A stretch of DNA of 64,000 nucleotides from NCBI RefSeq assembly GCF_025685545.1, contig NZ_JAGSYC010000026.1, forward strand, positions 930,001 to 994,000, written 5' to 3'. Below, in pieces: positions 2-5,075 of this stretch. Each line of letters starts with the position of its first letter. Position 1 is the first letter of the stretch. The stretch is from Granulicella paludicola (GTDB lineage Bacteria; Acidobacteriota; Terriglobia; Terriglobales; Acidobacteriaceae). The notes beneath the pieces are model-generated. The model made no database searches, had not been told where the DNA came from, and saw nothing but the letters and a program-made list of their open reading frames with translations. The position numbers were made by a program, and so were the translations under genes.

Positions 2-475
2 ACGCCGAGCCTGATTGCGGTTTCGCCGTTCCTGAGGACACAGCAGACCGCTGCTCCGACCATTGCTCGATTTCCTGAGGCGCCGGTTGAGACTTGGCCT
101 ATCTACGAGTTCACTTTCTGGGACCCCGCGCATTGGACGGGCGGAGAGCCGAAGGACATGATGCACGAGGTCGACCATTATTGGATGACGGCCGATCCAG
201 ATTTGCGGTATGGCGGCGGGGCGGAGAGCTTTGCGATGATGCTGCATCGGGCGGAGAACACATTCAACCAGCTTGCGGGGCTGGAGGTGACATCACCCGT
301 AATGGTCTTCACGCACGGACATTTCATCCAGGCCTTGCGCCTGACGGTCTTGCACCCAGAGTGGACGCCTACCAAGAAAATGCGCGAATTTCGTGCTTTT
401 GACGACGCCTACTGGGTGCAAAACACGCAGGTCGTAACTGCAGCATTCAATGGAACTCTGTGGAAGATTGATTAG
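2..475 (+). CDS. Histidine phosphatase family protein (5' end outside window)
   Basis: The reading frame is open from base 2 and ends at a TAG at 473-475, so the N-terminus lies outside the window. Visible near the start is SPFLRTQQTA, the usual segment after the first catalytic block (phosphate-binding Arg), and near the end VFTHGHFIQALRL, the second catalytic His block of the phosphoglycerate-mutase-like superfamily. These enzymes transfer or hydrolyse phosphate through a phospho-histidine. The first RHG motif is missing only because of the window edge. Substrate cannot be read from the sequence; a small-molecule phosphatase or cofactor-dependent mutase is possible. It is followed by a palindrome that probably ends its transcript. 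Confidence 0.8.
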   Translation, partial: TPSLIAVSPFLRTQQTAAPTIARFPEAPVETWPIYEFTFWDPAHWTGGEPKDMMHEVDHYWMTADPDLRYGGGAESFAMMLHRAENTFNQLAGLEVTSPVMVFTHGHFIQALRLTVLHPEWTPTKKMREFRAFDDAYWVQNTQVVTAAFNGTLWKID

Positions 476-542: not shown

Positions 543-713
543 TTAGTGCGTCTGGTGGGCGGGAATCGTCCTGGTGTGCGCCTGCTCCGTGTGATCATGG
601 GCGGTCAAAGTATGCGAGTGCTGGGCACCGAGTGTCGGGCGAGCATACGCAACCACGGGAGCGGCCACCACAGCCAGGGTGATCATCATTGCAAGAGACT
701 TGATGCTCTTCAT
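543..713 (-). CDS. Small secreted histidine-rich protein
   Basis: This is a 56-residue protein of unknown function. The start is chosen at the ATG at 713-711 because a perfect GGAGG lies 8 bases upstream on the minus strand; longer readings lack this. Residues 1-25 form a Sec signal peptide (KSIK n-region, hydrophobic LAMMITLAVVAAPVVA core, cleavage near AYA-RP). The short mature part is rich in His, Thr and Gln, with seven histidines in its last 27 residues (for example HSHTLTAHDH). Metal binding in the periplasm is a guess from composition only. It is convergent with the phosphatase gene and divergent from the trp leader. Confidence 0.6.
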   Translation of the reverse strand: MKSIKSLAMMITLAVVAAPVVAYARPTLGAQHSHTLTAHDHTEQAHTRTIPAHQTH

Positions 714-1003
714 TGTGTGACCTCCTGTGCTACATCCATAGGACGCCACAGGGTACTGACTGGATTCAGAAAATTGCGAAGAGCGAAGCAACTTTTTGTG
801 AACAGAATTCATATCCGCAAACGCATATTGATTGAGGAAAGACTACGGAAATAAGTAGCGCGGGGTGTATTCGCATGTCCTAGCATCGTGTTGTTTACGA
901 GTGTGGTTCGCTGCGGCCCTGATGATTGCCGGGCTGGGATATTTCTAAGCTGGCGTTTCTCTGCTTGCAGCGAAAAGCCAGACGGGTGTAAGGTGGTCAG
1001 GTA

Positions 1004-1078
1004 ATGCAAAACTTCTTCAGCCCGCGATTTACCCCTTCGTTCCGCTACTGGCCTCTCGTAGCGGCATCGGTGGAGTAG
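1004..1078 (+). CDS. Candidate trp-operon leader peptide, 24 residues
   Basis: An ATG at 1004 preceded by AGGTGG (991-996, spacing 7) opens a 24-codon ORF ending in TAG at 1076-1078. It is rich in aromatic residues: Phe at 4, 5, 9 and 13, Tyr at 15 and Trp at 16. The Tyr-Trp codons (1046-1051) lie exactly at the 5' arm and loop of the first hairpin of the attenuator. That position, the upstream location relative to trpB and the short length match leader peptides that sense charged tRNA by ribosome stalling. Only one Trp codon is present, where classical trp leaders carry two or more, so Tyr or Phe starvation may also be sensed. It is too short to be judged by conservation here. Confidence 0.6.
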   Translation: MQNFFSPRFTPSFRYWPLVAASVE

Positions 1079-1165
1079 CATCGCGCGGAACCGAAGTTCC
1101 TAGAGCGATTCTCAAGATTCTCCTCCCCGTGCCGCGACCCCACAAGGTTGCGGCTTTCGTGTTTT
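1042..1165 (+). promoter_or_regulatory. Candidate transcription attenuator upstream of trpB
   Basis: Four arms with mutually exclusive pairing are visible. Arm 1 CCGCTAC (1042-1048) pairs perfectly with arm 2 GTAGCGG (1058-1064). Arm 2 GCGGCA plus CGG (1061-1066, 1068-1070) pairs with arm 3 CCG plus TGCCGC (1127-1135), one base bulged: an antiterminator. Arm 3 (1131-1139) pairs with arm 4 (1146-1154) in a 9-bp stem with one G-U pair, followed by TTTCGTGTTTT: the terminator. A ribosome stalled at Trp codon 16 would mask arm 1 and leave 1061-1070 free to form 2:3. A small separate hairpin with CGAA loop (1087-1100) lies in the connecting loop. The weak point is the imperfect U-tract. Confidence 0.6.
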
Positions 1166-2879: not shown

Positions 2880-3647
2880 ATGCCGATAGACTTCTCAAAT
2901 AAGCCTGGCCTGGTCATCTACTTCACCGCGGGCGACCCAGACCTCAGCACCACGCGCGACATGGCGATTGCCGCTATCGATAGTGGTGCGGATGTTATCG
3001 AGCTTGGTGTGCCGTTCAGTGATCCGCTTGCCGATGGGCCTGTGATTCAGCGGGCCAGCGAGCGCGCCGTGGCGAAGGGCACGCGGTTGAGTGATGTGCT
3101 CGGTATCTGCAAGGAGATTCGCGACGCACGTCCGCAGGCGGGAATCATCCTCTTCAGCTATCTCAACCCTGTCGTTCGATTCGGCATGGAGGCCTTTGCG
3201 AAGGCCGCGAAGGAGGCCGGCGCGGATGGTGTGCTGTTGACCGACTTGATCGTTGAGGAGGCGGGCGGGTATCTGCCGTTGATGCAGAAGTACGATCTTG
3301 CACCAGTCTTTCTCGCTGCGCCAACGTCGCCGGATTCTAGACTGAAGGCTATCGCAGAGGCTTCGCAGGGCTTTGTCTATGCCATCTCGCGTGTCGGCAT
3401 TACGGGCGCGCAGACCGAGCTGGCGAACGATGCGCAGGGGCTGGTCGAGCGCATCAAGCGATTTACAAAGCTGCCGGTTGCGCTGGGCTTCGGCGTGTCT
3501 ACGCCGCAGCATGTGCGGGCGGTGGCGGAGTTTGCGGATGCGGCAGTGGTTGGCAGCGCGATTGTGGCGCTGGTTGAAAAGACTCCTGCAGCCGACGCGG
3601 CCAAGGCCGTGGGCGATTTTGTCCGCAGCCTGAAGTCGGGTTCCTAA
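2880..3647 (+). CDS. trpA: Tryptophan synthase alpha chain
   Basis: TrpA splits indole-3-glycerol phosphate into indole, channelled to TrpB, and glyceraldehyde 3-phosphate. The protein has 255 residues, near the family norm of 250-270, and is a TIM barrel. The catalytic Glu is residue 41 and the catalytic Asp residue 52 within ELGVPFSDPLADGP. The phosphate-binding glycines appear in GITGAQ and ALGFGVSTP, and the C-terminal AVVGSAIV is typical. The RBS GAGGAA lies inside the end of the upstream small gene. Its tight spacing shows it is cotranscribed with trpB despite the inserted gene. Confidence 0.98.
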   Translation: MPIDFSNKPGLVIYFTAGDPDLSTTRDMAIAAIDSGADVIELGVPFSDPLADGPVIQRASERAVAKGTRLSDVLGICKEIRDARPQAGIILFSYLNPVVRFGMEAFAKAAKEAGADGVLLTDLIVEEAGGYLPLMQKYDLAPVFLAAPTSPDSRLKAIAEASQGFVYAISRVGITGAQTELANDAQGLVERIKRFTKLPVALGFGVSTPQHVRAVAEFADAAVVGSAIVALVEKTPAADAAKAVGDFVRSLKSGS

Positions 3648-3743: not shown

Positions 3744-4001
3744 ATGGAGATCGCCGACTGGCGTAACAAGATCGATGACCTGGACGAACAGATTGTTCGT
3801 CTGCTGAATGAGCGAGCGGCTGCGGCCGTGGAGATTGGCAAATTAAAGGCGAAGGTCAGCTCTCCCGTGTATGAACCGAAGCGGGAAGAGCGGGTCTTCG
3901 AGCATGTGCAGCAGGTGAACCCGGGCCCGCTTACCGGCGGACAGGTACGAGACGTATATGAGCGCATCATCGACCTGATGCGCTCGCTGCAAAAGCAGTA
4001 A
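3744..4001 (+). CDS. Chorismate mutase, AroQ type
   Basis: An 85-residue all-helical chorismate mutase that converts chorismate to prephenate for Phe and Tyr synthesis. Family signatures are the opening RNKIDDLDEQIVRLLNERA (Arg near residue 7, the helix-1 active-site face) and a central Lys (GKLKAKV) followed by the conserved VYEPKREERV. The C-terminal helix VRDVYERIIDLMRSLQ closes the fold. RBS GAGG is 5 bases before the ATG. It lies 27 bases upstream of DAHP synthase; in some bacteria the same domain is fused to that enzyme as a regulatory unit, so a physical complex is plausible. trpA ends 96 bases upstream. Confidence 0.93.
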   Translation: MEIADWRNKIDDLDEQIVRLLNERAAAAVEIGKLKAKVSSPVYEPKREERVFEHVQQVNPGPLTGGQVRDVYERIIDLMRSLQKQ

Positions 4002-4031
4002 CGACAAGAGATTAAGAGAGGGAACTTCGTG

Positions 4032-5075
4032 ATGATCGTCGCAATGCAGGACCAGGCAACAGATGAACAGATTCAGAATGTAATCGAGCGCATGGTTGAA
4101 CTTGGTTTCAACGTTCACCGGACGACTGGTGAGACGCAGACTATTCTCGCGGGCGTGGGAACTCCCGGCCACTTCGAGGTGACAGAGTTCCAGGTGCTTT
4201 CGGGCGTACACCAGGCGTATCGCATTTCGTCGCCGTACAAGCTTGCTGGGCGTGGCTTCCGTCCTGAAGGCACACGCATCACCTTCCCCAACGGCGTGGT
4301 GGTTGGCGGTGAGGAGATCGTCATCATGGCAGGTCCGTGTTCTGTCGAAAGCCGCGACCAGATTCGCCTGAGCGCGAAGCAGGTGGCCGCTGCAGGCGCG
4401 CAGTTCCTGCGTGGCGGCGCGTACAAACCACGCAGCTCGCCGTACAGCTTCCAGGGCATGGGCGTCGAAGGCCTGAAGATCATGCGTGAGGCTGCCGATG
4501 AAAACGGCCTGCTCGTCATCACCGAGGTAATGGAGATCTCGCAGATCGAAACCATGCTCCCATACATCGACTGCTTTCAGGTCGGTGCGCGCAACATGCA
4601 GAACTTCAACCTTCTGCGCGAGCTCGGCCATGTCCGCAAGCCCGTGCTGCTGAAGCGCGGTATTGCCGCGACGATTGAAGAGGTCCTGCTGTCGGCGGAG
4701 TACATTCTGAGCGGCGGCAACTATGACCTGATGCTGTGTGAGCGCGGAATCCGCACCTACGAGACGGCGACGCGCAATACGATGGACATCTCGGCGATCC
4801 CGGTGCTGAAGAAGCTGACGCACCTGCCGGTCTTCGGCGATCCTTCGCACGGTGTCGGTATCCGCGAGTTCGTTCCGCCGATGGCACGCGCCGCCGTCGC
4901 TGCAGGCGCAGACGGCCTGCTGATGGAGATGCACCCGAATCCGGACAAGGCAATGAGCGATGGTGCTCAGTCGCTGACGCCGGAGCAGCTGACGAAGCTG
5001 GTAGAACAGCTACGCAAACTCGCTCCTGTGATGGACCGCAGTATCGCTCCGGCGGTCGAAAAAGTACACGCGTAG
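4032..5075 (+). CDS. aroF: 3-deoxy-7-phosphoheptulonate (DAHP) synthase, type I beta
   Basis: This enzyme condenses phosphoenolpyruvate and erythrose 4-phosphate, the first step of the shikimate pathway. The start is taken at ATG 4032, giving the family-typical opening MIVAMQ; an in-frame GTG at 4029 immediately precedes it. Residues 1 to about 95 form the ferredoxin-like regulatory domain seen in Thermotoga-type DAHP synthases. The catalytic barrel shows AGPCSVE, RGGAYKPRSSPYSFQG, QVGARNMQNF, LLKRG and GDPSHGVG, covering the metal Cys, the PEP-binding Arg/Lys and the metal His. With 347 residues it matches the family. It follows chorismate mutase in one transcription unit. The N-terminal domain suggests feedback control by an aromatic amino acid or prephenate. 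Confidence 0.95.
   Translation: MIVAMQDQATDEQIQNVIERMVELGFNVHRTTGETQTILAGVGTPGHFEVTEFQVLSGVHQAYRISSPYKLAGRGFRPEGTRITFPNGVVVGGEEIVIMAGPCSVESRDQIRLSAKQVAAAGAQFLRGGAYKPRSSPYSFQGMGVEGLKIMREAADENGLLVITEVMEISQIETMLPYIDCFQVGARNMQNFNLLRELGHVRKPVLLKRGIAATIEEVLLSAEYILSGGNYDLMLCERGIRTYETATRNTMDISAIPVLKKLTHLPVFGDPSHGVGIREFVPPMARAAVAAGADGLLMEMHPNPDKAMSDGAQSLTPEQLTKLVEQLRKLAPVMDRSIAPAVEKVHA

Follow-up and report, generated by a model that had tools for sequence, protein, structure and literature searches.

Introduction

The pheA leader of Escherichia coli is rich in Phe codons and precedes the gene for chorismate mutase/prephenate dehydratase. In the trp attenuators (E. coli trpL and the trp leaders of Corynebacterium and Streptomyces; PMC1262725) the control codons lie in strand 1, the 2:3 and 3:4 pairings are mutually exclusive, and a terminator stands before the biosynthetic genes; in Streptomyces, a trp-type leader is also found before trpB2A (PMC1262725). 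The trpL transcript of Sinorhizobium meliloti is leaderless and begins at the leader ATG (PMC7298713), and leaders that respond to several amino acids are known for branched-chain operons (PMC10272879).

The window analysed here is a stretch of 64,000 nucleotides from Granulicella paludicola (contig NZ_JAGSYC010000026.1, positions 930,001 to 994,000), in which a leader with the same predicted features as the trp attenuators lies upstream of trpB. This leader very likely acts by ribosome-mediated attenuation of transcription, with charged aromatic tRNAs as the signal. The mechanism is known; for this phylum, an aromatic family that mixes Phe, Tyr and Trp control appears to be new. As the original prediction had supposed, no description of an acidobacterial leader-peptide attenuator was found in the open-access literature, and searches of the window and eight related loci against Rfam, including its amino-acid leader and T-box families, gave no match at the curated threshold. 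At a permissive threshold the only Rfam match was an unrelated, weak one to a CRISPR repeat (E = 2.7).

Results

The leader ORF (1004-1078, plus strand) was read directly from the sequence as 24 codons and TAG, with the product MQNFFSPRFTPSFRYWPLVAASVE, and relatives keep both the reading frame and its aromatic codons. Substitutions in the relatives are biased towards the third codon position; in codons 2-12 of the closest same-genus leaders there were 66, 50 and 142 at the first, second and third positions, respectively. The 21 same-genus leaders that were read through, the host's included, differ in length by whole codons, and in all 21 an RYW precedes the stop codon, which comes 8 or 9 codons past the Trp (24 nt past the Trp codon in the host). 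The trpB leaders share the sequence FRYWxxVAASAE before the stop codon, with a nearly fixed length after the Trp, and Phe, Tyr and Trp make up 14.8%, 6.4% and 5.5%, respectively, of the residues in 56 of these leaders.

The putative control codons are Phe-Arg-Tyr-Trp (TTC CGC TAC TGG, 1040-1051, plus strand), whose aligned aromatic positions are kept in the trpB and aroK leaders and which overlap strand 1 (1042-1048) of hairpin 1:2. Four Phe codons had been counted towards a general aromatic sensor. Only the last of them (1040-1042), together with the Tyr (1046-1048) and Trp (1049-1051) codons, is well placed for a stalled ribosome to cover strand 1. Each aromatic amino acid has one well-placed codon, which counts against the attenuator reading; on theoretical grounds a single control codon per amino acid gives weak sensitivity (PMC1183508).

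A promoter is predicted upstream of the leader ATG, with TTGCAG at 965-970 as the -35 box and TAAGGT at 989-994 as the -10 box (both plus strand). The motif TTGnnn-N17/18-TAnnnT precedes 85 of 95 homologous leaders, compared with 1-10 of 95 in shuffles, and its -10 box usually ends 9-10 nt ahead of the leader ATG (9 nt in the window). The ribosome binding site that had been assigned to the leader (AGGTGG, 991-996) overlaps this conserved -10 box and was not upheld: Shine-Dalgarno motifs occur at chance level before the leaders (9/95, 7.3 in shuffles) but are present before 11 of 31 structural genes. At the usual spacing the predicted 5' end of the transcript is a few nucleotides at most from the ATG. 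Since the -10 box is so close and Shine-Dalgarno motifs are at chance level, the mRNA from which the leader is translated is probably almost leaderless. A transcription start downstream of 1078, raised earlier as an objection to the attenuator, is not what the conserved motif predicts. Upstream ATGs, considered as starts of some trpB leaders, were rejected because the -10 box contains them.

Hairpin 1:2, antiterminator 2:3 and terminator 3:4 were all read in the sequence and recovered by folding where they had been placed originally, the terminator also by a terminator scan. Strand 1 (CCGCTAC, 1042-1048) pairs with strand 2 (GTAGCGG, 1058-1064), a pairing that is also seen in the alignment. 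Strand 2 in its antiterminator use (GCGGCATCGGTGGAG, 1061-1075) lies opposite the strand 3 side at 1120-1135, with GCGGCATCGG (1061-1070) paired to the core CCGTGCCGC (1127-1135); folding of 1059-1141 places a further hairpin (1080-1109) within the antiterminator loop. The intrinsic terminator (1131-1165) is formed by GCCGCGACC (1131-1139) and GGTTGCGGC (1146-1154), followed by TTTCGTGTTTT, a U tract whose interruption counts against the attenuator reading. All of these elements lie on the plus strand. In agreement with the predicted distance of 47 bases, the terminator runs through 1165 and the trpB ATG is at 1213; ending about 50 nt upstream of that start, it cannot hide the trpB ribosome site.

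Fold energies in the window were -33.3 kcal/mol for 1059-1141 as 2:3, -17.5 kcal/mol for the terminator and -31.2 kcal/mol for 1020-1092 with hairpin 1:2 re-formed. The fold of the 202-nt region had a z-score of -2.66, and 4 of 200 dinucleotide shuffles were equally stable; much stronger evidence than this fold comes from the conservation among relatives.

The genes behind the leader are, all on the plus strand, trpB (1213-2472, the first structural gene; TIGR00263), an ORF of 135 amino acids with no Pfam match (2469-2876), trpA (2880-3647; TIGR00262), an AroQ-type chorismate mutase gene (CM; 3744-4001; TIGR01807) and a DAHP synthase gene (DAHPS; 4029-5075; TIGR01361), each TIGR match being above cut-off. 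The operon therefore does run on to chorismate mutase and DAHP synthase as predicted. A diverged copy of the 135-aa ORF (36% identity) is present in the same-genus relative L029; in many other relatives trpA directly follows trpB. The trpC and trpF genes lie upstream of the leader, outside the window, and a histidine-phosphatase-family gene (window 2-475; L244:4868-5476) is located between trpF and the trpB leader. Near the leader there is also a small divergent ORF (window ~543-714, minus strand) that begins MKSIKSLAMMITLAVVAAP and is signal-peptide-like; L011, L019 and L021 have similar divergent starts next to their leaders.

The host genome carries a second copy of the attenuator before aroK (G000:C21:73162-73300; locus L061:363-501), with the leader MTMFSSYARFTYGYWWQPAASRSSARLRTT. 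Examination of its trpE, hisG, ilvB and pheS genes revealed no comparable leader. For trpE, which is on another contig, the lack of an aromatic leader upstream counts against the attenuator reading. At trpE (L243 ~3565-3600) there is an inverted repeat, GTGAGACGGGCAT / ATGCCCGTCTCAC, overlapping the gene's start codon.

In a DNA search of 61 relatives, 22 gave a match, and these 22 all belong to the same genus as the host. A covariance model (R1) built from 20 same-genus copies was used to search 349 genomes of the class and identified 110 places; these are spread over 65 genomes, many of which have two. About 100 are homologues in the family Acidobacteriaceae, with a few outside it. Among the carriers are a metagenome-assembled genome of Granulicella and one of Acidobacteriaceae. 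There were 99 R1 matches at E ≤ 1.6e-4, and 98 of them precede an aromatic biosynthesis gene as identified by sequence match; for the other one the contig ends inside the gene. The genes concerned are trpB(-trpA-CM-DAHPS), aroK (its shikimate kinase identity was confirmed by Pfam), CM(-DAHPS) or DAHPS. A broader model (R2), with which 396 genomes of the phylum were searched, added Phe/Tyr leaders such as MRKSFNNFSFYFYFSGKAAEVCVRIG in other acidobacterial families (L221, L222, L223, L224, L226), followed by genes for chorismate mutase or prephenate dehydratase and for DAHP synthase. Weak matches driven by the terminator (E > 0.01 in the host's own genome; L225, L227, L231-L240 in other families) were discarded as chance hits or other terminators.

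The control codons vary with the genes behind them. A Trp codon is present in 56 of 56 distinct trpB leaders and 38 of 38 aroK leaders, compared with 8 of 18 CM/DAHPS leaders (Fisher p = 6e-8, kinship among the leaders being ignored). The aroK leaders read F-x-(F/Y)-x-Y-W, and the CM/DAHPS leaders often contain Phe and Tyr only. Leaders of operons without trpBA often have no Trp but retain Phe and Tyr. In genera with the leader on CM-DAHPS or DAHPS, trpB usually comes directly after a trpF-like gene, and no leader was seen ahead of trpB where it stands directly behind trpF and CM-DAHPS has the leader. The simplest history would be that trpBA moved in between the leader and CM-DAHPS in one clade, whose leaders now all contain Trp codons.

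These data bear on whether the same attenuator might sense tryptophan only, with a regulatory single Trp codon and incidental Phe and Tyr codons. The invariable Trp of the trpB leaders fits such a device, as does one Granulicella relative (L142) that reads FRTW, having lost the Tyr and kept the Trp. It is nevertheless unlikely: at the control positions Tyr and Phe are conserved like Trp, leaders of the aroK type carry the mixed motif and those of the CM/DAHPS type often Phe/Tyr alone, and all three amino acids are fed by the operon. The proposal of a general aromatic sensor has instead gained support, from the copies before aroK and from the frequent lack of Trp, with Phe and Tyr present, in leaders without trpBA.

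Covariation was counted over 100 aligned copies, in an alignment fitted to a model that included the terminator and with kinship ignored. Under these terms the terminator had 41 cells in which both sides had changed, against 8.6 in shuffles, and hairpin 1:2 had 13 against 3.9; neither value was reached in any of 500 shuffles. At the Tyr codon within hairpin 1:2 the pairs were TAC/GTA in 44 cases and TAT/ATA in nine, with no crossed pairs; in one Granulicella relative CCGCACCTG is paired with CAGGTGCGG. RNAalifold applied to the genus alone gave no support for hairpin 1:2 and found a single compensatory pair, which lay in the terminator, hence the need for the wider alignment.

For 2:3, column covariation was not significant because the five G-C pairs of the core (GCGGC/GCCGC) are nearly invariant. 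The flanks of this core do co-vary in a strand-swap test. The cognate duplexes averaged -16.6 kcal/mol, compared with -16.1 kcal/mol for swapped partners and -10.2 kcal/mol with strand 2 shuffled, and the observed mean was reached in 0 of 500 swaps overall and, when partners were swapped only within a gene class, in 1 of 500 (kinship ignored). Of the three helices for which covariation had been proposed as a check, the terminator and the Tyr-codon pair of 1:2 were borne out, and the core of 2:3 was nearly invariant.

The conserved RNA core also weighs on a TnaC-like arrest, in which a nascent peptide with Trp and the C-terminal VAASxE would stall the ribosome upon binding a free ligand. The C-terminus common to the trpB leaders and its near-fixed distance from the Trp would be expected of an arrest peptide, but the stretch after the Trp also encodes strand 2, and in the aroK and CM/DAHPS leaders the C-termini differ or use another frame (WYCVRGRRNLRMYL, RYHFTGSGYADLC); the RNA motif GCGGC persists nonetheless. 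As the peptide varies by operon class and GCGGC does not, the constraint is on the RNA, and peptide arrest is very improbable. Still less credible is a riboswitch or protein-binding leader with an accidental ORF; the leader is highly conserved and structured, as such an RNA would be, yet it has no Rfam match, and an aptamer would not be expected to show in-frame length changes, third-position bias and, whatever the operon class, aromatic codons. A constitutive terminator between the upstream unit and trpB, beside a chance ORF, would account for the terminator being the strongest feature, but is already contradicted by the retention of the ORF, control codons, promoter spacing and 2:3 complementarity over about 100 loci and can hardly be entertained.

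Discussion

The trpB leader of G. paludicola combines an ORF with aromatic control codons, three helices and an upstream promoter motif, and it stands before aromatic biosynthesis genes. For the attenuator that senses charged aromatic tRNAs, we infer stalling, termination, readthrough and the relevance of all three amino acids as follows. RNA polymerase would start just 5' of the leader ATG, with a ribosome trailing it. If tRNA-Trp, tRNA-Tyr or tRNA-Phe were short, the ribosome would stall at Phe-Arg-Tyr-Trp (codons 13-16) and cover strand 1, leaving 1061-1075 free; strand 2 would then pair with strand 3, no terminator would form, and trpB-trpA-chorismate mutase-DAHP synthase would be transcribed. 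With all three tRNAs ample, a ribosome at the stop codon would cover strand 2, or its release would let 1:2 re-form. Strand 3 would in that event bind strand 4, ending transcription about 50 nt ahead of trpB.

For the Acidobacteriota as a whole, we lean towards a family of nearly leaderless attenuators that acts as a general aromatic sensor, with one RNA scaffold and codons matched to the operon. Such a family would control the DAHP synthase/aroK trunk of the shikimate pathway and the Phe/Tyr branch, and in one clade trpBA as well; wherever the leader acquired trpBA, Trp codons would have become fixed. This would give the Acidobacteria, which are abundant in soil, a concrete and testable regulon, and the natural series of leaders on one RNA scaffold would allow the amino acids sensed to be compared with the genes controlled.

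Several differences separate the element from its closest counterparts. The trp attenuators have two or three Trp codons, whereas here a single Trp stands beside Tyr and Phe; chorismate mutase and DAHP synthase are in the operon, trpE has no such leader, the phylum is another one and Rfam has no match. S. meliloti trpL resembles it in the near-leaderless start, which is predicted here for most leaders, but has consecutive Trp codons and controls trpE(G). The Phe/Tyr leaders of other acidobacterial families are like the E. coli pheA leader in codons and genes; the codon mix at the present locus differs from pheA in including Tyr and Trp. The Corynebacterium ilvB-II uORF motif (PMC10272879) likewise has a terminator, an antiterminator and a leader peptide rich in several related amino acids that its operon produces, but it concerns branched-chain amino acids and one locus per genome, whereas the acidobacterial element is aromatic and stands before two operons in many genomes.
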